Below, in pieces: positions 1 to 9,864 of a stretch of 9,864 nucleotides of DNA (the first letter of the stretch is position 1; every line of letters starts with the position of its first letter). The notes under the pieces were generated by a model. That model was not told where the DNA came from, did no database searches, and saw nothing but the letters and a program-made list of their open reading frames with translations. The translations under genes were made by a program, and so were the position numbers. Source of the DNA: Oscillospiraceae bacterium (GTDB taxonomy: Bacteria > Bacillota_A > Clostridia > Oscillospirales > Oscillospiraceae); assembly GCA_017398105.1 (NCBI GenBank), contig JAFQHF010000132.1:1-9864 (forward strand), written 5' to 3'.

Positions 1-13
1 CTATCAGATTGAC

Positions 14-29
14 GCTTTTTTTGTTTTCA
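14..29 (+). terminator. probable 3' tail of an upstream intrinsic terminator (partial)
   Basis: A GC followed by seven T, G, four T, C, A. The same 16 bases occur at 787-802, where they form the end of a clear intrinsic terminator. By analogy this is the end of a terminator whose hairpin begins at or before the window edge; the upstream arm is not visible, so this rests on the resemblance alone. Confidence 0.4.
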
Positions 30-40
30 AAATCAATTTA

Positions 41-46
41 GGAGGA
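41..46 (+). promoter_or_regulatory. strong ribosome binding site for the 54-743 gene
   Basis: GGAGGA lies 7 bases before the ATG at 54 (the core GGAGG ends at 45). It fixes the start of the first gene. No convincing promoter can be placed in the 40 bases upstream. Confidence 0.7.
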
Positions 47-53
47 AAATACA

Positions 54-743
54 ATGAGCGTCCGCGCAGAGGAAAAGAAAAGATACTTCCAGGAAACCGC
101 CATTGCCCTACGGCGTGAAGGTTTCAAAGTCGAGCCGAGTGTCGGCGGCAGGCTTGCGGTCTGGCTGGATGACCACCCGCTCTGTGAGGTAGACCAGATC
201 GGCGGAATAACATACCGCAGTGACAACATCCCCACCCCGGAGTATGTGGCAGCAAAGGACAAGGTATACAGGATCGTCTGCAATACTGCCGAGTATATGA
301 AGCAGATGGAACAGGCCCCTCCCCTGAAGGTCAGCGACCTGCCGGACAGATACAAGGTGTTGGCTGACTTCAACGGTGTAGTGCTGGCAGGAGCACATGG
401 CAAGTATGGCGTGGAGTTCGTCACCTGGGACTGGGATCACGACCGCAAGGGTCTGTCCCACGGTCACTACTTCACCGGCAACTACGAGGGGGCCAAGCAG
501 GACTTTGCCACCCGCTCCGGCCTCATCCCCGAACAGCAGCTTTTCAAGGACGAACAGCTCATCGAGATCTACCGTTGCTGCGCAGACACCCTCGACGCAG
601 GCTTCGACCTGACCTACGAACAGGAAAAGTGCATCAAGAGCGTTCAGGAGCAGATCGAACACGGAATGCCTGATATCATGGACCGCATCAGAGAGCAGGA
701 TCAGCACACCGTGGAACCCTACAGCCAGGAACAGACCATGTAA
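54..743 (+). CDS. conserved mobile-element protein of unknown function
   Basis: A 229-residue soluble protein with no signal peptide or membrane segment. The start is ATG 54, set by a GGAGGA ribosome binding site 7 bases upstream. It has a charged N-terminal helix (1-22), a probable beta-rich part (24-56), a helix with Cys and Met around 65-88, and a central motif WDWDHDR (125-131) followed by GHYF (137-140). A helical C-terminal half has two adjacent Cys (175-176). The style of the central motif and of the C-terminal part matches hypothetical proteins I associate with clostridial conjugative elements, but I cannot name a domain. It stands apart from the next gene: a good intrinsic terminator follows 12 bases after the stop. 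The C-terminus ends in EQTM, loosely like the Gln/Met-rich tails of its neighbours. Function unknown; the reading frame itself is secure. Confidence 0.85.
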   Translation: MSVRAEEKKRYFQETAIALRREGFKVEPSVGGRLAVWLDDHPLCEVDQIGGITYRSDNIPTPEYVAAKDKVYRIVCNTAEYMKQMEQAPPLKVSDLPDRYKVLADFNGVVLAGAHGKYGVEFVTWDWDHDRKGLSHGHYFTGNYEGAKQDFATRSGLIPEQQLFKDEQLIEIYRCCADTLDAGFDLTYEQEKCIKSVQEQIEHGMPDIMDRIREQDQHTVEPYSQEQTM

Positions 744-755
744 CAACCAACGACA

Positions 756-795
756 AGCGCCGGAGTTTTAGCAATAAGACTCCGGCGCTTTTTTT
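756..795 (+). terminator. intrinsic (rho-independent) terminator
   Basis: A perfect 11-bp GC-rich stem (756-766 with 779-789, AGCGCCGGAGT / ACTCCGGCGCT) can be extended inward by a G-U and two A-U pairs to leave a six-base loop. It runs into seven T (789-795). It should end transcription of the 54-743 gene. Only 11 bases separate it from the SD of the next gene, so no full promoter fits between them. Confidence 0.9.
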
Positions 796-822
796 GTTTT
801 CACCGAAAGGAGCCAATCACCT

Positions 823-1521
823 ATGACACGTTACTTTATGCGGGATACCCCTCTGCGCCAGTTGGAACAGCAGATGATGACCCCGCCCAATTTCAAACCC
901 AGAGGTCACGGCCTGTATCATCCCGGATTCCGGTATACATCCAAGGATGTGGACTGCCGCTACTGCATGAGCTTCGACCGCAAGCACCCCTGTCCTCTGA
1001 GCCAGTGTCCCTACCTGGAAGAACGTATCGAGGCTGGAGCACTTGACCTGAATGAATTTGTTCAGGACTGCTTCTGTGCTGAATTGGGGCCGCAGCTCCA
1101 GAGCCGACTGCAAGAATACTTTAGTTGCCGCTCTGTCTGGTTCTTCCTTGGCGACGCACATCAGAAACGCTGGACACACTGGCGCAACCGCTACTACAAA
1201 ATGTCAGACCGCAACAAGGCCGCGCTATTTCTCCTCACTGCATACGAGGACATCTGGCGCAGGATCATTTGGAAATTTGACGAAAGCGGCTTTGACTTCC
1301 AATCTGTCCAGCTCTCCGGTATCCAGCCGGAGCTATACAGCGTCTACCAGGCGGCAAAAGCCATCGCAACGGGCAGCCGCAACATCACTACTGCCGATCT
1401 CGCATCTCCCGAATTGGTCACAGATGAGGCGTTCCAACTGATCATCTGCGCTCTGATTCTGGCCAAATACGGAGATGTGATTTTGAATTTAGAAAGAAAG
1501 ACAGGTGATATCAAGCAATGA
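823..1521 (+). CDS. unknown protein with a four-Cys putative metal-binding motif
   Basis: A 232-residue protein starting at ATG 823, with AAGGAG (807-812) 10 bases upstream. Its N-terminal third has four cysteines spaced C-x2-C-x8-C-x4-C (Cys45, 48, 57, 62), within DCRYC and CPLSQCPYLEERI, which looks like a small zinc-binding knuckle. Two further Cys (83, 85) follow. The middle holds aromatic and basic stretches (FFLGDAHQKRW, 118 onward; WRNRYYKM) and the C-terminal half is mostly predicted helix, ending in a hydrophobic helix (LIICALILAKYG) that looks like protein core rather than membrane. I recognise the general pattern from hypothetical proteins of clostridial conjugative elements, but I know no assigned role. 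The stop overlaps the start of the next gene (ATGA at 1518-1521), so the two are probably translationally coupled. It is the first gene after the terminator at 756-795. Confidence 0.85.
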   Translation: MTRYFMRDTPLRQLEQQMMTPPNFKPRGHGLYHPGFRYTSKDVDCRYCMSFDRKHPCPLSQCPYLEERIEAGALDLNEFVQDCFCAELGPQLQSRLQEYFSCRSVWFFLGDAHQKRWTHWRNRYYKMSDRNKAALFLLTAYEDIWRRIIWKFDESGFDFQSVQLSGIQPELYSVYQAAKAIATGSRNITTADLASPELVTDEAFQLIICALILAKYGDVILNLERKTGDIKQ

Positions 1522-2717
1522 TGCAAGCAGTATTGAGCAACGCCGCTCACCCGGAATACGGTGTTGCGACTATCCCGTTCCCCATTCCCAGAGAACAGTT
1601 CGACCAATGTATCGAGCTGGTGGAAGCACTGGAGATCGGCAATGCTTCCGCCAGGGACTGTCATGTGGATGAGATCCGAAGCGCATGGCCTGTGCTGAAC
1701 CGACTGGAGGACGATGTGGTCAATCTGGACGAGCTGGATTATCTGGCAAAGCGGCTGGACAGCTTCGATGTGGGCGAGGCCGCACAGTTTCAGGCCATGG
1801 CCGAGAAGCTGGATCTGACCGACATGAAAGACCTCATCAACCTGACCTTCTGCTGTCAGGAAACCACAGTTATCACAGACTTCTCTGACCTGGGAGCCGT
1901 TGGCCGTGACCACTATATGAACACCCACGGCGGCTGTGCCAGCATACAGGAGCTGGAGGAACTGGACGGAGAAGAAACCGCCATCCTGCTGATCGACGGC
2001 GGTGGAGGCACTGTGACCCGCTACGGCGTGGTTTACGACAACGGCATGAAGCTGGACCAGTCCTATGACGGAAGGTACTTCCCGGCATACCTCTATGAGC
2101 CGCCCATGCTTATGGTGGCGCTGACCTCCAGTCAGGAGCCGGAGGATACCAAGAACATCACTTGGCTCTATCTCCCCGCAGCCAAAGGCCAGATCGAGCG
2201 TGCCATGGCCCGCTCCGGCATCGCAGACCCGGAGGATATGCGCTTCCGGTTTGCCGAGAGCATGTTCCCAGACGAAGTGGATGCTGCGCTGGACTTCCGG
2301 TATGAGGGCATCTTCGAGCTCAACGAGCTGGCACAGGCCGTGGATAAGCTCTCTATGGATGACCGAAAAAAGCTGGGTGCTGTGGTGGCCATGGCCGAGC
2401 CGGAATACGCCATGCAGATCCGCCATCTGGAAGAAAACCTGGACCAATTCGAGTTTGCGCCCGGTGTCCATACCCCTGCGGAGTACGGCAAGTTCATGAT
2501 CCAGGAATCCGGTCACTTTGAGTATGACCCCAATCTGGATGAGTTCTACGACTACGAAAAGTACGGCCTGCAGCGCATAGAACAGCAGTCCGGTATGTTC
2601 ACTGACCGGGGCTATATCTCTTATCACGGCACGATGAATCTGGGGGAATTGATGATGGAAGATCCTGCGGAAAGCTACCAGCAGGAGCAGGGCTTTCAAA
2701 TGGGAGGCATGGCATGA
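1518..2717 (+). CDS. ArdA-like antirestriction protein, double module
   Basis: A 399-residue, strongly acidic protein. ArdA proteins are elongated DNA mimics that bind and inhibit type I restriction enzymes in the cytoplasm, and they usually have about 165-180 residues; this one has two modules of that size (about 1-178 and 195-371). Each has a beta-rich start, then a conserved helix (NLDELDYLAKRLDSF at 69-83; ELNELAQAVDKL at 267-278), an acidic helical middle and a closing Gly/Tyr-rich part. The second module ends like Tn916-type ArdA: a DY-x2-YG element (DYEKYG, 345-350), then a glycine strand (DRGYISY). The assignment rests on this pattern recalled from ArdA, not on a search. ATG 1518 overlaps the previous stop; AGGTGAT (1503-1509) lies 8 bases upstream, and a second in-frame ATG sits at 1521. 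The last residues (QMGGMA) are encoded by the SD of the next gene, which begins inside the stop codon (ATGA). Confidence 0.8.
   Translation: MMQAVLSNAAHPEYGVATIPFPIPREQFDQCIELVEALEIGNASARDCHVDEIRSAWPVLNRLEDDVVNLDELDYLAKRLDSFDVGEAAQFQAMAEKLDLTDMKDLINLTFCCQETTVITDFSDLGAVGRDHYMNTHGGCASIQELEELDGEETAILLIDGGGGTVTRYGVVYDNGMKLDQSYDGRYFPAYLYEPPMLMVALTSSQEPEDTKNITWLYLPAAKGQIERAMARSGIADPEDMRFRFAESMFPDEVDAALDFRYEGIFELNELAQAVDKLSMDDRKKLGAVVAMAEPEYAMQIRHLEENLDQFEFAPGVHTPAEYGKFMIQESGHFEYDPNLDEFYDYEKYGLQRIEQQSGMFTDRGYISYHGTMNLGELMMEDPAESYQQEQGFQMGGMA
2697..2711 (+). repeat. junction repeat CARATGGGAGGNATG, copy 1
   Basis: This sequence encodes Q-M-G-G-M at the end of the 1518-2717 gene and contains the SD GGGAGG (2702-2707), 6 bases before the next start at 2714. 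The same 15-base pattern ends three other genes of the cluster. Confidence 0.85.
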
Positions 2718-3826
2718 TACGACTGAAGCTCTCCAACAAAAGCGCAAACGAGGGGATCAACCTCGACCTGCCTGCCACCCCCGCAGAAATAGGCGAAGCG
2801 TTCTCGTGGTTTGAACGAATCGGCGTTGACCTCTCTGCCGTCCGCATCGCAGGTGTGAACAGTCCCGTCCCTACCCTTGGGCAGTATATCCTTCGTACTG
2901 ATATCCACGATCCCGGACAGATGAAAATGCTGAACGAGCTGGCAGATTCTATCGCGCAGATGGATGACCGGGAGTGGAACATTTTCGCCGGAGCGCTGGA
3001 TGCGGAAAGCATCAATGGTCTGGGCGATGTTCTACAGCTCTCCAAGCGGCTGGATGACTATATCATCCTTCCTAATGTCAAGACGGACACCGAGCTGGGA
3101 CGCATTCTGGTGGATACCGGATACAAAAACTTCCCCGAAGCCGTACAGCCCTATCTGGACTACCGTGCCATTGGCGCAGAGTACTATGCCGAGAACGGTG
3201 GCGCATACGGCCCCGGTGGATATGTCCGGCGCAAAAGCTCACTGGAACAGGGGCAGGAACGCAGAAACGCCTTGATCACGCTCCATCTGACCACCCAGCA
3301 GGCTGAATGCCGCCTTGTGCTTCCCGCAGAGGAAGAAGAACTGGAGCAGGCCAAGGAGCGACTGGGAATCGAACATTTCACCGAAGCCACCATCACCCAA
3401 GTAGAGTTCGGCAAGCCCTATATGGATGACCTGATTCCCAAGGACTGTATCTGCGTAGAGGATGCAAACGAGCTGGCTCTGGCTATCGAGGAGTTTTGGC
3501 AGAGAGATGGTGAGTTTCTGAAATTCCTTGCCGTTCTCTCTATGGAACAGCCGGAAACCATGTCGAATGTGCTCCGATTCGCCATCAACCTGGATGACTA
3601 CGAGCGTATCACCGAGGGCACCTATGAGTACGGACAGACAGTTCTGCGCCGCCATGGTGCCGACGATGAATTGCTGGAGGCCATGGATGGATATATGGAC
3701 TTTGAAAAGCTGGGCGAAGATGCCATGGTGGAGGACGGTGTCCGTCAGACCGAGTTCGGTCTCATCCGCAGGTGCAGTACCCCTTTTCCTGAAGAAACAC
3801 AATCGATGCAGATGGGAGGAATGTAA
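2714..3826 (+). CDS. ArdA-like antirestriction protein, double module
   Basis: A 370-residue acidic protein, probably a second DNA-mimic antirestriction factor. Module 1 (about 1-172) starts with a strand and an LPATPAE segment (19-25), followed by MLNELADSIAQM (72-83), RLDDY (112-116), TDTELGRILVDTG (124-136) and YLDYRAIGAEY (147-157). That last block closely parallels the NYIDYQAYG region recalled from Tn916 ArdA. Module 2 (about 187-353) repeats the order: LVLPAEEEEL, ANELALAIEEF (251-261), NLDDY (292-296), YMDFEKLGED (327-336), then a closing strand. The start is ATG 2714, overlapping the previous stop as ATGA, with GGGAGG 6 bases upstream. The C-terminus MQMGGM is encoded by the SD of the following small gene. 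It is a diverged paralogue of the genes at 1518-2717 and 5463-6641, sharing module architecture rather than close identity. Exact targets cannot be read from the sequence. Confidence 0.8.
   Translation: MIRLKLSNKSANEGINLDLPATPAEIGEAFSWFERIGVDLSAVRIAGVNSPVPTLGQYILRTDIHDPGQMKMLNELADSIAQMDDREWNIFAGALDAESINGLGDVLQLSKRLDDYIILPNVKTDTELGRILVDTGYKNFPEAVQPYLDYRAIGAEYYAENGGAYGPGGYVRRKSSLEQGQERRNALITLHLTTQQAECRLVLPAEEEELEQAKERLGIEHFTEATITQVEFGKPYMDDLIPKDCICVEDANELALAIEEFWQRDGEFLKFLAVLSMEQPETMSNVLRFAINLDDYERITEGTYEYGQTVLRRHGADDELLEAMDGYMDFEKLGEDAMVEDGVRQTEFGLIRRCSTPFPEETQSMQMGGM
3809..3823 (+). repeat. junction repeat CARATGGGAGGNATG, copy 2
   Basis: It encodes QMGGM at the end of the 2714-3826 gene and carries GGGAGG (3814-3819), 7 bases before ATG 3827. 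That position is strong evidence that the small reading frame at 3827 is translated. Confidence 0.85.
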
Positions 3827-3940
3827 ATGAAGAAGAAAATCATCATCGCGCTGGCATCGCTGGCGGCAGTCGGAGCTGCCATCGCAGGTTATCTCCACTT
3901 CTCCGGCAACCGCTCTTTTGGTCATAGCTATTTCCACTAA
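3827..3940 (+). CDS. small membrane or secreted peptide, 37 residues
   Basis: A 37-codon reading frame. ATG 3827 comes directly after the stop of the preceding gene (TAA 3824-3826), with GGGAGG 7 bases upstream, and the frame ends at TAA 3938-3940. The product begins MKKK, continues with a hydrophobic stretch of about 17 residues (III to AIA, roughly 5-20) and ends in a polar, aromatic and His-containing tail of 17 residues (GYLHFSG near 21-27; last residues SYFH). This is either a single-pass small membrane protein with its tail outside, or a signal peptide with a possible AIA|G cleavage releasing a short peptide. It lacks a lipobox Cys. It lies inside the antirestriction run and shares the same junction element, so it belongs to the operon. 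I do not recognise the family. Possible roles include a membrane regulator, an exclusion-type factor or a signalling peptide; none is shown by the sequence. Confidence 0.65.
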   Translation: MKKKIIIALASLAAVGAAIAGYLHFSGNRSFGHSYFH

Positions 3941-3972
3941 GCTGTGGTATGTTATGTAGCTATACCCAGAGA

Positions 3973-3980
3973 AAGAGGTG
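3973..3980 (+). promoter_or_regulatory. ribosome binding site that sets the start at 3987
   Basis: AAGAGGTG lies 6 bases before ATG 3987. The in-frame GTG at 3978 sits inside this SD and so is an unlikely start codon. Confidence 0.65.
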
Positions 3981-3986
3981 AAAACA

Positions 3987-4484
3987 ATGCAGAAAAACAA
4001 AAACGAAGTAAATAACCCCAAGTTTGAGATCAGGCCAGCTTCTTCTGAGGAAGCTGGCCTTTTCTATGCCCAGCATCCCGCGGAGGATGAGCGGCTTGGC
4101 TGCATCGGTCACATCCGCATGGACTTCGGGCGAAACGGCAATGAGTTTTGGCACACATGGTGGCCCAGGGGTCCTGAAGAATGGAACAGCCCCGCATTCA
4201 AGGCCGAGCTTCAGGAGGTGGTGGATGAGCTTCGGCAGAGCGTGCTGAAAAACCGCACTGCCATGGAGCGCTTCTGCTATGGTCACGGTGGGAAGATCAA
4301 CGGCGGCTATGTGCAAAACTATGGCTATGTGGTGGAAACTGAACATTACCGCTACTGCCTGCGGTGTAACCCCTCGCCGGGTGACTACAATGGTTATCTG
4401 ACGGCCTATGACCTGGACATCCAGCGTCATAACATGGAGCAGGAACAGCCTGACCAAGGTATGCAGATGGGAGGTATGGCATGA
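3987..4484 (+). CDS. unknown mobile-element protein with FWHTWW motif
   Basis: A 165-residue protein. The start is ATG 3987 rather than GTG 3978, because the latter lies within the SD. The first 15 residues are polar and probably disordered. A conserved-looking core follows: [13 protein letters not shown] (36-48) and NEFWHTWWP (52-60), then a helix ([15 protein letters not shown], 70-84), a Cys (97), a Gly-rich turn ([10 protein letters not shown]) and [17 protein letters not shown] (121-137) with a Cys-x2-Cys. The DFG..G..F..TWW and RPGDY-like blocks resemble a family I associate with conjugative elements and phages of Firmicutes, but I cannot give it a name or role. The C-terminal tail QMGGMA is encoded by the SD of the next gene, whose ATG overlaps the stop (ATGA). 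A terminator-like hairpin lies within codons 16-24 (4033-4063). Confidence 0.8.
4033..4063 (+). other. terminator-like hairpin inside the start of the 3987-4484 gene
   Basis: A perfect 10-bp inverted repeat, GGCCAGCTTC (4033-4042) with GAAGCTGGCC (4050-4059), has a 7-base loop and is followed by TTTTCT. It looks like an intrinsic terminator or attenuator, but it lies 46 bases inside a reading frame. It could attenuate the distal genes when translation is weak, or be a chance product of Glu/Ala/Ser codons. Confidence 0.5.
4464..4478 (+). repeat. junction repeat CARATGGGAGGNATG, copy 3
   Basis: It encodes QMGGM at the end of the 3987-4484 gene and carries GGGAGG (4469-4474), 6 bases before ATG 4481. 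It differs from copies 2 and 4 only at the N position. Confidence 0.85.
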
Positions 4485-5470
4485 ACACGATTTCGAGAGA
4501 ATGGCTGGAGTTTCTGCGTGAGCAGTATCCCAAGGGCTCCCGCATCAAGCTCAGAGAGATGCAAGATTCCCACGACCCGGTCCCTCCCGGCACCATGGGA
4601 ACGCTGGATCATATCGACGATGCAGGCCATTTCCACATGAAATGGGACAATGGCAGGACGCTCAGTCTCGTCATCGGTGAGGACAGCTTCTCCGTTCTGC
4701 CGCCCGAACCCACCACCATGAAGCTGTATATGCCCCTGACGGCAGATGCCTACTATTACAACGAGTACGGCGACATGGAGGATGAAAGCTATCCGATGGA
4801 CGGCAGAGAGCTTCGCTCTTATGAGGGAGCGATCCTGAAAGCACTGATCAACAACCGTATGCCGGAGGAAAGTGAAAGTGGCATCATGCACTGGTACGAC
4901 GGCAACGACTCCGTGGAAGCCAAAGTCAAGTCCGTGGTGTTTACCGTCGAGGAGCGTGAGGGCAAGCTCTGGGGCGTAGCCGAATGCCGAGTCGTGGGTG
5001 ACCTCACCCCGGATGAGCTGTCCACCCTGAAGGAGTATATCACCGGGCAGGCATCGGACGGTTGGGGCGAGGGCTTCGAGCAGCGTGAGATCGACATCGG
5101 TGACGGTGACATGTATGTTCATCTCTGGAACGACAATGATGACTGGGATGTTCGCACCGAGGAGGAATGCTTCGGCCCCAAGCTGGCAGAAGGTCTGCCG
5201 GAAATGTGCTTCTCTGTTCTCCCTGACACCGGCGCGCTGATTTGTATCAAGCGCGGAGAAAGCGGCTACTATCCTTCGGATTGGAGTACAGGTAATAGAG
5301 AGCGCAACATCCAAATCAGAGATGATGCCAATGAGAGCATGGGAGTCACAGATGCCCAGCGCAAGGCCATGGAAGCAGGCTCAATGTTTGGCTGGAATGT
5401 CCCCGGCGCTGACCCAGCCAAGTACCAGGAGCAGGAAGCCCCGCAGATGGGAGGAATGACCCTTGGATAA
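4481..5470 (+). CDS. DUF4314-domain protein with a long C-terminal extension
   Basis: A 329-residue protein. Residues 4-75 are recognisable as DUF4314, a small beta-barrel-like domain of unknown function common in Firmicutes mobile elements: [31 protein letters not shown], a MKWDNGRTL strand and GEDSF. Residues 80-226 form a second, acidic region ([56 protein letters not shown]). Residues 238-313 form a third block ending in [20 protein letters not shown], a pattern I have seen in other element-borne proteins. DUF4314 proteins are often near 70-80 residues alone, so this is a multi-domain version. The start is ATG 4481, overlapping the previous stop (ATGA), with GGGAGG 6 bases upstream. The end carries QMGGM plus TLG, and overlaps the next gene's TTG start by 8 bases. 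No function is known. Confidence 0.85.
5444..5458 (+). repeat. junction repeat CARATGGGAGGNATG, copy 4
   Basis: It encodes QMGGM near the end of the 4481-5470 gene and supplies GGGAGG (5449-5454), 8 bases before the TTG start at 5463. The ATG inside the repeat (5456) opens only a four-codon frame, so TTG 5463 is the working start. Confidence 0.85.
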
Positions 5471-6641
5471 AGTCTTCCGCGTGGAACTGTCCGGGGGCAA
5501 CCGAAGATACTGCGAACTGGACTTGCCGGCGACCAATTATGAGATGCTGGATGCGCTGGAGCGCCTGCAGCTCAAACCCGGTGATAAACCGGATTGGGAG
5601 ATCATTGAGCATACCGGCTTCCAATTCCTCCATGTGCATCTGACCGGAGAATGCGACCTGTACCAGCTCAACGCTCTGGCCACCCGCCTTGGGCAGATGA
5701 ACAGCAGCGACAAAATCGCCTTCGAAGGTCTATTCAATATGGAGGTGGCCAAGAAATACGGACCCATCTCCATCGCCACCATGGTCGACCTTGCTTACAG
5801 CACCGACTGCTGTCATGTGGTCGAGGGCGTGACCACCGATGCGCAGCTCGGTGAGTTCTACGCGGAGAACGGCTTTATGCCGGAGCTGGATGCTTTGCCG
5901 GACGGCGTATTCCAACTGCTGGATTTTGATAAGCTGGGCGAAAAGATGCGCATTGAAGATGGCGGCATTCTGGTCAACCGGGGCTATGTGTCACCGCACG
6001 CCGATATGAAGCAGGTCTATGATACCCTGACCCTTGTACCCCAGCCCCCGGATTATGCCTTCCGACTGCTCATCGGCAGATACCCCTTCGAAACCAACGA
6101 CCAGCCGGAGAAGCAAGTAGCCCTGACACTCCCCGCCACACCGGATGAACTGGCTGACGCTCTGAACGCCTGCGGTGCCGCATCCTGGGATGAGGTGGTC
6201 TTCCAGACCGAGGACAGCGCAGTCCCTCACATTCTGGACAAGCTGGACAGCGACGGCATCGAGGAGATCAACGAACTGGCGCAGGCGATCCAGTACCGGG
6301 CGAAACGTTCTGAGCTGACCAAGCTGAAAGCTGTCCTCCACGCTTCCGACTGCCACAGCATCCATGCCGCCACCTATATCGCGGAGAATCTGGATGACTA
6401 CCTGTACGAGCCTGACCAGCGCACCGCCGAAGAAGTTGCTATGGAGGAACTTCGCTTCGTGGTAGATGAGCAGTCCCTTGCCACCCTGCAAAAGCACGTC
6501 AACCTCTTCAACTACGGTATGGATGTGATCAGAGAATCCAATGCCATGATGACACCCTATGGACTGGCACTGCGCAGAGATGGCGAGATGCTTCTCTCCC
6601 TCGATGAAACTCCTTCCCAGGGAGGGATGCAAATGCAATAA
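5463..6641 (+). CDS. ArdA-like antirestriction protein, double module (TTG start)
   Basis: A 392-residue acidic protein, the third double-module ArdA-like protein here. Module 1 (about 4-178): [15 protein letters not shown] (18-32), [13 protein letters not shown] (67-79), [14 protein letters not shown] (124-137), then [17 protein letters not shown] (152-168) and NRGYVS. Module 2 (about 197-373): [16 protein letters not shown] (219-234), [10 protein letters not shown] (267-276), [10 protein letters not shown] (308-317), [13 protein letters not shown] (347-359) and a closing strand. The recurring LPAT-x2-E, ELN-x-LA, LDDY and DY/DF-x2-LG elements match the gene at 2714-3826. The presumed role is inhibition of type I restriction by DNA mimicry. 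The start is TTG 5463: the SD GGGAGG is 8 bases upstream, the next in-frame ATG would cut off the first conserved strand, and the ATG at 5456 is out of frame. The tail SQGGMQMQ is a degenerate version of the MGGM tail with no gene at the expected distance. A terminator follows. Confidence 0.8.
6618..6629 (+). repeat. degenerate junction repeat (copy 5, orphan)
   Basis: CAGGGAGGGATG encodes Q-G-G-M at the end of the 5463-6641 gene. It keeps an SD-like GGGAGG but lacks the ATG before it seen in the other copies, and no reading frame starts downstream at a usable distance. It may be a relic of a former downstream gene or a tail kept for its protein sequence. Confidence 0.5.
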
Positions 6642-6664
6642 ATCGAAAATCAAATACGACTATA

Positions 6665-6705
6665 GGGGCCGTTACCCGAAAGGGACAACGGCCCCTTCCT
6701 TTTTT
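6665..6705 (+). terminator. intrinsic terminator with stacked hairpin
   Basis: The outer stem GGGGCCGTT (6665-6673) pairs perfectly with AACGGCCCC (6687-6695). An inner CCC/GGG stem closes a GAAA tetraloop (6675-6684). A T-rich tract follows (6696-6705). It should end the 823-6641 transcription unit. Part of it (6672-6681) is also perfectly complementary to 6714-6723. Confidence 0.88.
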
Positions 6706-6743
6706 GCGCTCTTTTTCGGGTAATGCCCCGGAAAGGAGTCCTC

Positions 6744-7085
6744 ATGGAGAAAATCCATCCCATCACGGAGTATCTGAGAAAATATCACACCGGAGAACAA
6801 AATATCATCTCCAGCCGTGAGCTGGAAACTGCTTTTCAGATCCGTGGGCCGGAACTGCGAAACATCATCAATGCGCAGCGTGGCCAGGGGTATCCCATCT
6901 GCAGTACCGATAAAGGATACTTCTACGCCGAAACCGAGGAGGAACTGCAAAGGACGATCCGGCAGCTTCAGAGCCGCATCAAGAAGATCGCCCATGCGGA
7001 GCGTGGCCTCGTCAAAGCATGGCGGGAGCGATTCACCGACAGCGGTCAGATCGCCTTCCCTCTGGAGGGAGGCGATAAGGATTGA
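6744..7085 (+). CDS. small winged-helix-like DNA-binding protein
   Basis: A 113-residue basic protein. The start is ATG 6744, with AAAGGAG (6732-6738) 5 bases upstream. An in-frame ATG at 6723 has no SD and lies in the terminator's downstream arm, so it is not favoured. Residues 5-64 read as a winged helix: a first helix (ITEYLRKY), SSRELETAFQIRGPELRNIINAQRGQGYPI as the helix-turn-helix (23-52), then the wing CSTDKGYFYAE (53-63). A long helix with regular hydrophobic spacing follows (64-95), suitable for dimerisation. Similar small wHTH proteins occur in phages and conjugative elements as regulators or replication accessories. It overlaps the methyltransferase gene by TTGA (7082-7085), so the pair is co-translated; it may regulate the methyltransferase or help target DNA. 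The exact role is an inference. Confidence 0.75.
   Translation: MEKIHPITEYLRKYHTGEQNIISSRELETAFQIRGPELRNIINAQRGQGYPICSTDKGYFYAETEEELQRTIRQLQSRIKKIAHAERGLVKAWRERFTDSGQIAFPLEGGDKD
7064..7072 (+). promoter_or_regulatory. ribosome binding site for the TTG start of the methyltransferase
   Basis: GGAGGGAGG lies 9 bases before TTG 7082. It supports a TTG start inside the stop region of the upstream gene. Confidence 0.65.
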
Positions 7086-8047
7086 AAAGCTTCATCCCCT
7101 GGGTAGGAGGCAAAGGCAAACTGCTGTGGATACTCAGCAAACTGGCCCCGGAACGATATAACCGATTTATCGATGTCTTCGGCGGCAGCGGCACAGTGAC
7201 CATGAACCGCCCGATCCAGCCGGGATGTATGGAGGTTTACAATGACTTCAACAGCAATCTGACCAACCTGTTCTGCTGTGTAAAAAGTCGACCCATGGCA
7301 TTGCTGAAAGAGCTTGGATTTCTGCCGCTGAACACCCGTGACGATTTCAATGTGCTGTACAAATATTTCAGCCGGGATGAATTCACGGATGATTATCTGC
7401 GGGAAGAAATGGAGTTGACCGAAATACTCCTGAAACCGCCTGACGCTGAAGCGATCCGCAAGCTGATGCTGGAGCGAGCGCCCCGCGGAGATATCCGCCG
7501 TGCGGCAGATTATTTCAAAATGATCCGTTACAGCTTCAGCGGCAGTGCCAAATCCTTCGGCGGCAAGCCCTGTGACATCCGCCGCTTCTTCCACCTCATC
7601 TGGGAATGCTCCCGCAGACTGGCGAACGTGGTCATTGAAAACAAGGATTTCGAGGACTTGATACGCCAGTATGACCGTACCGATGCCTACATCTACTGCG
7701 ACCCGCCCTACTTCGAGGCCGAGTGCTATGAGGTAGGCTTCCCAAAAGAAAACCATCAGCGGCTCCACGATGTGCTTCTGGAATGTCAGGGCTATGTGAT
7801 GGTGTCCTACAACTACTGCGAATTCATCTCAGAGCTGTACAAGGAGTTCTATATCTTCCGCACCGTCCGTCCCAACAGTATGTCCCAGAAAGCCGGAAGC
7901 GAATACGAAGAAGCGATCATCACCAACTATGACCCGCGCAGGGCGGCTTGGCAGCTTTCCTTGGAAAGCCTGCTGGGAGATGACTGCGACAGCCGGTATG
8001 AGTTGATGCATGAACCGGAATACCCGCTCAAGATATCTGCCCTATAA
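7082..8047 (+). CDS. D12-class (Dam-like) N6-adenine DNA methyltransferase
   Basis: A 321-residue protein that should transfer methyl groups from S-adenosylmethionine to the N6 of adenine in DNA. The order of motifs is that of the alpha/D12 class (Dam, DpnM type): motif X PWVGGKGKL (6-14), motif I DVFGGSGTV (31-39) binding SAM, an acidic EVYND (51-55), a target-recognition region around 80-190 with the SFSGSAKSFGG element (151-161), the catalytic DPPY (207-210, within YCDPPYF), and a VSYN strand (241-244). All key residues are present and the length is normal. The start is TTG 7082: it must lie close before motif X, and a strong SD is in place. Specificity (GATC or other) cannot be read. GATC is common in the window (about sixteen in the first 2.5 kb by eye), so it is not avoided. 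No partner nuclease is next to it, so it is probably an orphan methylase protecting element DNA or regulating it. Confidence 0.93.
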   Translation: MKSFIPWVGGKGKLLWILSKLAPERYNRFIDVFGGSGTVTMNRPIQPGCMEVYNDFNSNLTNLFCCVKSRPMALLKELGFLPLNTRDDFNVLYKYFSRDEFTDDYLREEMELTEILLKPPDAEAIRKLMLERAPRGDIRRAADYFKMIRYSFSGSAKSFGGKPCDIRRFFHLIWECSRRLANVVIENKDFEDLIRQYDRTDAYIYCDPPYFEAECYEVGFPKENHQRLHDVLLECQGYVMVSYNYCEFISELYKEFYIFRTVRPNSMSQKAGSEYEEAIITNYDPRRAAWQLSLESLLGDDCDSRYELMHEPEYPLKISAL

Positions 8048-8071
8048 ATCTAAAAACATGGAGGAATTCAA

Positions 8072-8566
8072 ATGACCTTTATCAAGTACACCAACGACGG
8101 CAAGGCCGTTATCCAGCCTGCCGCCCTGACTCTGAGCAACCTCGACAACGAGGATGCTCTGGAGATGCACACCCTGAACAATGCCATCGTCCTGCTCAAG
8201 GAAAATATGACGCCCATGGAGAAGTTCTTCGCCTTTGAATCTTTGGTTCGTCTGATGGAGAGTCTGGCCGTCGAGCTGGAGGCCGACACGGACGATGACA
8301 CCGACGATGATAGCGAAGCAGATGACACCGTCAATATCTGCGACGGCATGATTTCCATCCCCGGCGAAGCATTCGAAATGGCTGGTATTTGGGGCAAGGA
8401 TCTGAATATCCGCAGTGTCGAGGGCGCAGTAGTTATCACCGAAGATATCTCCGACGAGGATAAGGTCGATGCCCTTATGAACGGTATGGGCAGAGCGCCT
8501 TATGATTTGGCTGTGCTTCTCAATGTGATGAACAACATCGTGAGATCCGGTGATGCCGATGCCTAA
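8072..8566 (+). CDS. acidic protein with AbrB-like hairpin segment
   Basis: A 164-residue acidic protein starting at ATG 8072, with GGAGG (8060-8064) 7 bases upstream. It has an N-terminal strand region (1-20), a helical part (28-70), a strongly acidic low-complexity linker (71-85, with DTDDDTDDD), then residues 91-123 with a pattern of the AbrB/MazE swapped-hairpin type (DGMISIPGEAFEMAGI, a charged turn, DLNIRSVEGAVVITE), and a C-terminal helix (130-158). AbrB-type segments bind DNA or form antitoxin dimers; this match is by pattern only. The alternative is an uncharacterised element protein in which the acidic stretch serves as DNA mimic or flexible linker. It overlaps the next gene, so the two are probably coupled, and it follows the methyltransferase gene after 24 bases. 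Confidence 0.75.
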   Translation: MTFIKYTNDGKAVIQPAALTLSNLDNEDALEMHTLNNAIVLLKENMTPMEKFFAFESLVRLMESLAVELEADTDDDTDDDSEADDTVNICDGMISIPGEAFEMAGIWGKDLNIRSVEGAVVITEDISDEDKVDALMNGMGRAPYDLAVLLNVMNNIVRSGDADA

Positions 8567-9287
8567 GGACCACGCCTATCTCTACCTCGGCTCCGTGTCT
8601 GAGGCCAGACGGTACAACGAACTGGACAAATGGCGTGCAAGCCATGAACAGAACATCGCCTGCAAACAGGCCATCGAGGAAGCCATCCGCCAAGGCTTCG
8701 ACGGTATGTATCTGGACAAAGCCTGCGCCGAAAGTGTCATCGAAGCCTATGGGTTCAAACGTGTGGGATGGGTGCTGTCCAGCACCCTACAGCAGAAAAA
8801 GGATGACGGCAGATTCAGCACCCAGAACAAGGAATGGGCCAAGACCACCTTCGTCCCCAGGAGCGACCGCAACCATGACTTTACCGTGCAGAGCCACCCG
8901 GCCGTACTGGATGGATTCGTCAGCCAGTTCCGCAAGGCTCAGGCAGAACTCCAGATGTTTGACCGTACCCACTGTGATACCATGACCGGACAAGCTCTGG
9001 CCGGAAAGGTGCTGGTCATGAGTCCCTTTACTCTGAAGGAGTCCTACTGGGCGCAGGAGAACCAGCTCTGGCTGGCGACCGGAGGCTTCGGCTGCAGTCC
9101 CACCGCCGCAGGCAGAGCTGTATATGCTACCTGTCTCGGTGACGGTGAGCATACCCGTTGGGACCGCAGCGACTTCATTGGCATTCTCCGTGAGGAGCAT
9201 CTGCCCGACTGGGCAAGAGAAAGTCTGGAACAGATTCGGCAGGATGCGCCTGCCGAATCTCCCAATATGAATATCCAATCCATGTAA
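8559..9287 (+). CDS. DUF3849-domain protein
   Basis: A protein of 242 residues from ATG 8559; ATG 8553 or GTG 8550 would add 2 or 3 residues. I prefer 8559 because GGTGAT (8549-8554), complementary to the 16S tail, then lies at a usable distance. Residues 5-115 match what I know of DUF3849: YLYLGSVSEARRYNELDKWR, then IACKQAIEEAI, DGMYLDKACAESVIEAYGFKRV, WVLSSTLQQK and DGRFSTQNKEWA (84-95). A second block (115-220) contains LAGKVLVMSPFTL, a WLATGGFGCSPTAAGRAVYATC strand-loop region (171-192), WDRSDFIGI and LPDW; it resembles a segment present in other conjugative-element proteins. The function of both parts is unknown; no catalytic motif stands out. It shares a short overlap with the gene at 8072-8566. 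The tail (NIQSM) lacks the MGGM form. Confidence 0.82.
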   Translation: MPKDHAYLYLGSVSEARRYNELDKWRASHEQNIACKQAIEEAIRQGFDGMYLDKACAESVIEAYGFKRVGWVLSSTLQQKKDDGRFSTQNKEWAKTTFVPRSDRNHDFTVQSHPAVLDGFVSQFRKAQAELQMFDRTHCDTMTGQALAGKVLVMSPFTLKESYWAQENQLWLATGGFGCSPTAAGRAVYATCLGDGEHTRWDRSDFIGILREEHLPDWARESLEQIRQDAPAESPNMNIQSM

Positions 9288-9307
9288 CTGAAAGGAGAGC
9301 GATCATT

Positions 9308-9664
9308 ATGGCAGCTACCAAGAAAAAGCAGGAAGTCACCACCCCTCAAATCGAAGCGAAAATCGACCGCATGGTGGATGGCGACTTCAAGACCAAAGCC
9401 TACGCCAGCGCCACCATCGGTGGGGCCTTCGCCGTCCACGGCATCCGTGTCATCGAATCTGACAAGGGCCGCTTCATCTCCATGCCCCAGGATTCCTATC
9501 AGAAAAACGGCGAAACCAAGTACAGCGACACCTTCCACGCCATCACCGCCGATGCCCGAACTGCTCTGGTGGAAGCGGTCAACGATGCCTATGAGCAGAA
9601 GCTGCAGGAGCAGATGGAGCAGAAAGCGGATGCTCCCAGTCAGGCCATGGGCCAGCAGATGTAA
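9308..9664 (+). CDS. SpoVG-family protein
   Basis: A 118-residue protein; residues 14-97 match the SpoVG family well: IEAKIDRMVDGDFKTKAYAS, TIGGAFAVHGIRVIES, KGRFISMPQDSYQKNGETKY, then a FHAITADARTALVEAVNDAYEQKL helix. SpoVG proteins are small nucleic-acid-binding regulators: the Bacillus and Listeria proteins act on RNA or DNA and affect septation, sporulation and virulence. This copy has an N-terminal Lys-rich extension (ATKKKQ) and a Gln/Met-rich tail (EQMEQKADAP... QQM), as in element-borne versions, which are thought to be regulators separate from the chromosomal spoVG. It starts at ATG 9308, with AAAGGAG (9291-9297) 10 bases upstream. The next gene's SD lies about 13 bases after its stop. 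Confidence 0.92.
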   Translation: MAATKKKQEVTTPQIEAKIDRMVDGDFKTKAYASATIGGAFAVHGIRVIESDKGRFISMPQDSYQKNGETKYSDTFHAITADARTALVEAVNDAYEQKLQEQMEQKADAPSQAMGQQM

Positions 9665-9679
9665 GCCGTTCGTCCTGAA

Positions 9680-9689
9680 GGGAGGTGAT
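9680..9689 (+). promoter_or_regulatory. near-perfect ribosome binding site for the TTG start at 9695
   Basis: GGGAGGTGAT nearly equals the full anti-SD complement. The GGAGG core ends 9 bases before TTG 9695. The ATG at 9688 overlaps the SD and is in another, short frame. Confidence 0.7.
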
Positions 9690-9694
9690 GTACC

Positions 9695-9864
9695 TTGGTT
9701 CGATTCACTGTAGACAACCGAAACCGTCTGGTCTTCTATGGCAATATGGTGGGGTATGTGAAAGACAACACCGCTGTCGTGGATGAAATGTTCCAGACAG
9801 ACGAGCTCACACGCTATCTGAACAGGCTGAGTCTGACTCCCCAGTGGGAAGATGGCGTATTCGA
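9695..9864 (+). CDS. unknown protein, 5' part only (runs off the window)
   Basis: An open frame of 56 codons from TTG 9695 to the window end, without a stop. It begins (L/M)VRFTVDNRNRLVFYGN, followed by MVGYVKDNTAVVDEMF and a helix (TDELTRYLNRL), then TPQWEDGVF. The strand-rich start with a 'GYVKD' turn and the WEDGVF block resemble N-terminal parts of element-borne hypothetical proteins. I cannot name the family from this fragment. The start is set by an almost perfect SD; the gene is the third here with a TTG start. It probably belongs to the same operon as the SpoVG-family gene, 30 bases upstream. Confidence 0.7.
   Translation, partial: MVRFTVDNRNRLVFYGNMVGYVKDNTAVVDEMFQTDELTRYLNRLSLTPQWEDGVF

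Follow-up and report, generated by a model that had tools for sequence, protein, structure and literature searches.

The subject of this analysis is a short methionine (Met)-rich tail at the C-terminal ends of proteins, unrelated in part, that are encoded in a 9,864-nucleotide stretch of DNA (hereafter, the window) from an Oscillospiraceae bacterium (GenBank assembly GCA_017398105.1, contig JAFQHF010000132.1, positions 1 to 9,864 of the forward strand). There is little doubt that the tail is a shared protein-level feature, independent of gene junctions, and it is highly probable that, where the next gene abuts, a Shine-Dalgarno sequence is overlaid on the tail codons. The two layers are combined in a reading to which a probability of about 0.5 is assigned, namely that the tail is an element-specific C-terminal signal for a type IV secretion system (T4SS) with the Shine-Dalgarno sequence superimposed on it, translocation being the part that we infer.

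The repeated element and the tail that it encodes

In the window, the tail is most conspicuous as CARATGGGAGGNATG, a 15-base element present in four exact copies, all on the + strand, each read in frame as QMGGM at the C-terminal end of a gene and each containing GGGAGG at 6, 7, 6 and 8 bases, respectively, from a following start. A search of the whole window with two mismatches allowed returned the same four sites only, and four matches were reached in 0 of 200 dinucleotide shuffles. Thus, the sequence-only reading, which had noticed that one 15-base element closes four genes (ending at 2717, 3826, 4484 and 5470), giving Q-M-G-G-M in frame and GGGAGG 6-8 bases ahead of the next start, is borne out in its coordinates. 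Its description of four consecutive large genes is accurate in that all four tails are present, but the start at 3827 opens a 37-residue open reading frame (ORF; 3827-3940) and no large gene; similarly, the upstream proteins (ArdA-like, FWHTWW and DUF4314) are of three kinds, as it had stated in calling them partly unrelated, although two of the four belong to the ArdA family. Met/Gln tails also close four further window genes, none of which has an abutting called gene after it. The features concerned are:

2697..2711, + strand: QMGGM tail of the ArdA-family gene 1518-2717; GGGAGG at 2702-2707 for the start at 2714
3809..3823, + strand: QMGGM tail of the ArdA-family gene 2714-3826; GGGAGG at 3814-3819 for the start at 3827 (37-residue ORF)
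4464..4478, + strand: QMGGM tail of the FWHTWW/LPD28-type gene (start 3978 or 3987, stop 4484); GGGAGG at 4469-4474 for the start at 4481
5444..5458, + strand: QMGGM tail of the DUF4314 gene 4481-5470; GGGAGG at 5449-5454 for the TTG start at 5463
5459..5470, + strand: T-L-G-stop codons of the DUF4314 gene, within which the following ArdA-family gene starts (TTG, 5463)
717..740, + strand: Met/Gln tail (YSQEQTM end) of gene 54-743; 79 bases to the next gene, with a terminator-like hairpin between them
6618..6638, + strand: QGGMQMQ Met/Gln tail of the ArdA-family gene 5463-6641; 102 bases to the next called gene
9264..9284, + strand: NMNIQSM Met tail of the DUF3849 gene 8559 (or 8550)-9287; 20 bases to the next gene
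9644..9661, + strand: AMGQQM Met tail (QAMGQQM end) of the SpoVG-like gene 9308-9664, the last called gene

The tail was followed around DUF4314 homologues, in 80 loci (the best of 170 confirmed matches) of Oscillospiraceae-type genomes and four viral contigs, with genes called by a small codon-based caller that reproduces the window genes and misses small ORFs. After removal of near-duplicates at 95% (1193 of 1499 genes kept), genes were classed as abutting (next gene at most 3 bases away), at 4-25 bases or at more than 25 bases, with protein clusters stricter than those used for the family scores given below. In tail-bearing families, Met occurs in the last eight residues of 164/176 abutting genes, 59/61 of those at 4-25 bases and 178/188 of those beyond, the last figure being 181/191 when a doubtful family (49), excluded from the final counts, is included. 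The abutting junctions of 35 families without the tail show a Gly-Gly (GG) end in 4/159 cases, though a Shine-Dalgarno-like sequence precedes the next start in 94/159. Since the Met tail is independent of spacing and the tail-less families so seldom have such an end, the tail must be attributed to the protein rather than to the junction. In two homologue families (the best 120 of 3715 and the best 120 of 812 matches, respectively), Met is found in the last eight residues of 119 and 98 sequences, and GG plus a hydrophobic residue near the end in 100 and 85; the tail invariance seen in alignment A2 is biased, as its 18 homologues, taken from 120 and aligned with the window protein, were picked partly for intact ends. 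The sequence-only reading had regarded the tail as a modular gene-junction element that is not inherited with a domain. This view does not survive, given that homologues and unrelated genes alike retain the tail without an abutting gene, an outcome that the sequence-only reading itself had named as a refutation, and that its presence tracks the class of the upstream protein.

The form and the codons of the tail do vary with the junction. The GG form is found in 134/176 tails of abutting genes vs 24/61 at 4-25 bases and 44/188 beyond. Codons were counted in 211 GG-type tails, 8 of which lacked a usable neighbour. GGA encodes the first Gly in 110/134 abutting cases and in 3/24 at 4-25 bases, where GGC accounts for 17/24, and abutting genes differ from both farther classes (Fisher p = 1.3e-7). 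Of the Gly codons in the bodies of the same genes, 785/4830 are GGA, as are 19/270 at the first Gly of internal Gly-Gly pairs. Hence, the earlier suggestion that the tail DNA provides the signal for starting the following gene stands for abutting junctions. Where ArdA follows DUF4314, the closing residues (TLG, TLE, TFG, TLA and similar) also hold the TTG start of the next gene, and among 63 DUF4314-cluster genes all 39 overlaps of 8 bases have a TTG start. Shine-Dalgarno sequence and start lie within the upstream gene at proper spacing, as is expected of translationally coupled overlapping genes. These junctions resemble the ordinary ATGA overlaps in having both signals in the upstream coding sequence (with 4-base overlaps, or TTG at overlap 8), but differ from them in that the upstream residues holding the Shine-Dalgarno sequence form a conserved protein motif.

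That the tail is nothing but the translated Shine-Dalgarno sequence of the next gene is, therefore, extremely unlikely. The well-spaced GGGAGG at all four window junctions, the preference for GGA and the more frequent GG form at abutting junctions would agree with it; on the other hand, tails are kept without an abutting gene, then often with GGC, other abutting genes with a Shine-Dalgarno-like sequence are almost always tail-less, and relaxases bear the tail too, such as that of locus L143, whose neighbour has its own Shine-Dalgarno sequence and ATG after the relaxase stop codon. A pure junction module is thus rejected on the spacing, codon and control-family counts.

A different explanation without protein-level function, in which the tails spread by duplication and recombination between neighbouring genes, is very unlikely. 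The ArdA genes are indeed related neighbours, and, where the downstream gene is conserved and the upstream one unrelated, 19/46 locus pairs keep similarity in the 17-24 bases before the start, all at tail junctions, so that the upstream replacements end inside the tail. The remaining 27/46 pairs, some tail junctions included, show no similarity in this ungapped test, and in the reverse case (upstream gene conserved, downstream replaced) similarity is found in 2/40 pairs and is absent from 38/40. The 19 pairs represent a handful of independent events, with a similarity length confounded by the shared tail; a shared tail with its Shine-Dalgarno sequence would yield 17-24 bases of similarity without recombination. 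The swapping of genes through recombination in the repeat, as suggested by the sequence-only reading, is as compatible with these pairs as its absence. Against such spreading, Gly codons vary with context and tail forms vary (MGGM, MxM, QQTM), yet Met is kept, and FWHTWW homologues with an inserted domain still keep the tail: in P0135, P0154 and P0193 the extra domain lies between body and tail (KMGGM, MTMGGIK and MTFGGM, respectively).

Proteins and elements that carry the tail

The genes of the window that are needed for comparison are:

1518..2717, + strand: ArdA-family gene with tail (PF07275, E 7.3e-10)
2714..3826, + strand: ArdA-family gene with tail (PF07275, E 2e-13)
3978..4484, + strand: FWHTWW gene with tail (no Pfam match; LPD28, PF18843, precedes in some homologues)
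4481..5470, + strand: DUF4314 gene with tail (PF14192, E 2.3e-28)
5463..6641, + strand: ArdA-family gene with tail (PF07275, E 6e-12)
6744..7085, + strand: contrast gene without Met tail (4-base overlap with the downstream Dam-like methyltransferase gene, start 7082)

For the family scores, 1454 sequences left after 90% dereplication gave 49 families with at least five members, and a composition score was trained leaving out one family at a time, the line being drawn at the 99th percentile of 255 host genes. These clusters are loose, and F1 (31/82), for instance, joins the gene-54 family with the 6744-7085 family. In 17/49 families, the last eight residues contain at least one Met on average. 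Members above the line are frequent among DUF3849 (32/37), LPD28/FWHTWW (43/51), SpoVG-like (26/27), ArdA (114/159), DUF4314 (39/53) and MobL (16/33) proteins, the YodL-type cluster (5/7) and a relaxase-adjacent protein (10/14), vs none or nearly none among the TraG-like ATPase (0/13), TrbL (0/16), the sortase cluster (0/29), the D12 methylase (1/39) and the 8072-8566 family (0/43). A few scores above the line were also obtained in small clusters that are not among the 17 (e.g. F28 2/10, F34 2/9, F18 2/15). Within the tail, a linker rich in Gln, Pro and Glu comes first, followed by forms such as MGGM, MxM or QQTM. In both structure models the tail is disordered, with a predicted local distance difference test score (pLDDT) below 50 at residues 157-168 and 319-329 (the last 11-12 residues).

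The window is too short to show a conjugation machine; in related elements, polyvalent-type domains (ArdA, LPD28, YodL) are seen beside one, and in three complete or near-complete genomes the tail genes share their stretch with a MobL relaxase (MobP3 by NCBIfam), TrbL, a T2SSE-type ATPase and a TraG-like ATPase. Twenty genomes (G001-G020), our own choice among the 80 loci, were examined for the relaxase: 30 of 61 matches had loci and, after dropping L125 (internal stop), L138 (which ran off its stretch) and three duplicates, 16 of 25 distinct MobL/MobP3 ORFs lie above the host 99th percentile, with ends such as QGGMVMGGM, DMGGMTMGW, WPQMTM and GPSMSM. One scanned MobL relaxase has Sel1 repeats, and a GHKxDDHEE-like stretch immediately precedes the tail in many MobL ORFs; WEQTMQ or WQQTM(S) closes three PF03432-type relaxases, of which two share the GHKxDDHE stretch (the loci behind these observations are L094:1007-4000, L122-L151, L213, L215 and L217). 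The window DNA had no near match among plasmid records and one 77-base match among phage records; DUF3849 matched 6 plasmid and 12 phage records, and the MobL protein 472 plasmid records, one spanning 80% of the query, with the rows listed being mainly Sel1/TPR repeats. Given these outcomes, genome loci were used for the covariation test.

There, a second type of end was met. Met tails occur in 180/570 genes of the Met-type elements E01-E15, vs 15/259 host genes and 6/150 genes of eight elements (E16-E23), seven of which have a relaxase of the PF03432 kind; Arg/Lys ends show the opposite distribution (44/150 in E16-E23 vs 39/570 in E01-E15, host 29/259), hence the designation of E16-E23 as Arg-type. 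Fifteen Arg-type families have at least three members, and three of these end in R, namely the SpoVG-like protein (8/8), the relaxase (6/7) and a 197-residue family (5/5), the remaining twelve having one R end in total. By the criterion of two Met among the final eight residues, or one among the final three, the relaxase has a Met tail in 8/14 Met-type elements. The SpoVG-like protein has a Met tail in 13/14 Met-type elements in which it is found and an R end in 8/8 of the Arg-type ones. In the wider SpoVG-like set (30 of 34 matches with loci), 18 copies end in Met tails, 6 in R and 6 in neither; of the copies with neither end, two are far from any relaxase match, two are near a divergent small relaxase (E24, E25), and there is one more. 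Elements E01-E18 were mostly picked with some tails already seen; E08, E11 and E19-E23 were picked blind to the tail.

A candidate secretion signal and its alternatives

The presence of the tail on cargo proteins and many relaxases, its absence from TraG-like and TrbL proteins, its rarity in the host and its element-dependent hydrophobic or Arg version make it resemble a T4SS signal. The lack of tails on machinery genes, of which only some are named, together with their scarcity in host genes, is as expected of such a signal, and so is the C-terminal, exposed location seen in both structure models. The mechanism proposed has a protein layer and a DNA layer. In the former, a short, disordered, Met-rich tail is carried in one Oscillospiraceae conjugative-element family by unrelated cargo proteins (ArdA-type antirestriction and other 'polyvalent'-type proteins) and, in many elements, by the MobL/MobP3 relaxase; the coupling apparatus would take up the relaxase by its tail and co-deliver the protective cargo to the recipient, while another element family would use an Arg-ending signal on its relaxase and SpoVG-like protein. 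In the DNA layer, selection has favoured the GG form and GGA where the next gene abuts, so that the tail DNA doubles as a Shine-Dalgarno sequence and, at the DUF4314 junction, also holds the TTG start of the next gene. That the tail is a translocation signal, with recognition by the coupling protein and delivery, is given slightly less than even odds. Somewhat less probable still is the generalization that each conjugative-element family of these gut Firmicutes labels its relaxase and anti-defence cargo with a family-specific C-terminal tag, of Met or Arg type. It is with the same reserve that we consider what this two-type labelling would imply, i.e. that the proteins injected with the DNA may be read from the genome, the Met type serving at the DNA level also as the ribosome-binding site of the gene that follows.

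Several observations weigh against this interpretation. With respect to the relaxase, in 99 other genomes of one taxonomic family (27 new loci, five of which ran off their stretch, leaving 22 distinct ORFs) MobL lies above the host 99th percentile in 4/22 cases only; thus, the tail marks a MobL subgroup, and the idea that it is a general MobL property was rejected. Of the Met-type relaxases, 6/14 have no Met among their final three residues (E08, E10, E11, E13 and E14, and E09 with Met at -4), the SpoVG-like protein of E13 has no Met tail and the relaxase of E18 no R end. As for the Arg type, E16-E18 were picked for the R end of their SpoVG-like protein, so that only E19-E23 were picked without that knowledge, and these look like one element type and, therefore, amount to few independent cases. 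One of the 17 Met families, F29 (...MFDYxG), scores 0/6, and soluble proteins encoded in the same operons, such as the D12 methylase and the 6744-7085 and 8072-8566 families, are tail-less. The tail families were defined by Met content, a choice from which only the leave-one-out, relaxase and spacing comparisons are free. GGA is still found in 28/45 tails with the next gene more than 25 bases away, which is a misfit with a simple rule of codon choice. Finally, most of the features listed above, from which delivery to the recipient is proposed, would be expected also of a degron or a docking tag.

A degron or chaperone tag, i.e. a Met tail that would hand over cargo expressed early, once it has been used, to a protease or folding factor of the host, would account for a short disordered C-terminus on many unrelated proteins, and C-terminal degrons are known. 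This explanation is unlikely, considering that the Met tail is rare in host genes and that, in the same hosts, another element family has an R end on its SpoVG-like protein and relaxase, for which an element-coded recognition is a better fit. The latter would be provided also by a docking tag without translocation, which would hold cargo and relaxase at a hub encoded by the element (coupling protein, relaxosome or mating site), be it in the donor or the new host. The same class pattern and element specificity would be expected of it and nothing speaks directly against it, as it differs from the secretion signal only in whether the protein crosses; we consider it rather improbable.

Comparison with known systems helps to place the proposed secretion signal. 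The first two types of T4SS C-terminal signals to be described were positively charged and hydrophobic, respectively (PMC10025392). The signals of Agrobacterium VirF (Arg type) and Legionella RalF are similar to the tail in being short C-terminal stretches on unrelated proteins, with charged and hydrophobic versions (PMC10025392); by contrast, the tail, known from sequence, is Met-rich, occurs on antirestriction-type cargo of Gram-positive-type elements and is reused as a Shine-Dalgarno sequence. ArdA, YodL and LPD-type domains are found also in the polyvalent proteins of phages and Firmicutes conjugative elements, some of which are transferred with the DNA, but those proteins are characterized by their domains, with no shared C-terminal tail described in the part of the source available, and include giant multidomain chains, while the window proteins are small (PMC5512222). 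Conjugation machines can transfer proteins of possible benefit to the recipient, as in the F-plasmid 'conjutome', where they are co-delivered by means of C-terminal or internal signals; these signals are diverse, whereas here one recognizable tail is found across much of the cargo set (PMC11288057). No description of this tail was found in the titles and abstract openings listed by searches of the open-access literature.

Other features of the window and meaning of the tail

The 37-residue ORF at 3827-3940 (+ strand), started by the Shine-Dalgarno sequence of the second tail, encodes a hydrophobic stretch, and comparable small ORFs may follow ArdA genes in other loci: in L011, among the 200 of 248 GG-tail genes listed, the gene designated 8784, which falls in the class with the most distant neighbours, is directly followed by GTG-AAA-AAG, possibly a small ORF of this kind missed by the caller. 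The Dam-like methyltransferase gene at 7082-8047 scores 82.4 bits with TIGR00571, under the cut-off of that model. A fold search with the FWHTWW model gave a best E of 0.07 and no identification, and an Rfam scan of the window gave no match.

A strong terminator-like hairpin (755-790, + strand; 16 pairs and a T run) lies between genes 54-743 and 823-1521. Another one (4032-4060, + strand; 13 pairs, then a T run) is found inside the FWHTWW coding sequence, near its 5' end, where the codons read RPASxEEAGLF. It can form in all 32 genes matching that peptide (window included, 31 distinct); pairs 2-12 are kept in at least 27/31, standard pairs fill 339/403 cells vs 175-240 with slid partners, and double changes occur at three third-position/third-position pairs (8, 2 and 2 cells). 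This hairpin is possibly an intragenic attenuator, with protein constraint contributing to the pairing.

In the double coding of the tail, one set of bases has clearly been selected both as a peptide motif and as a ribosome-binding site, and the non-abutting genes provide a built-in control. Should the tail prove to be a secretion signal, it could be predicted from sequence which proteins a conjugative element injects, the proposed travel of antirestriction and polyvalent proteins with the DNA would become a directly testable list in Gram-positive-type elements, and families of unknown function, such as DUF4314, DUF3849, LPD28 and the gene-54 family, would acquire a shared context.

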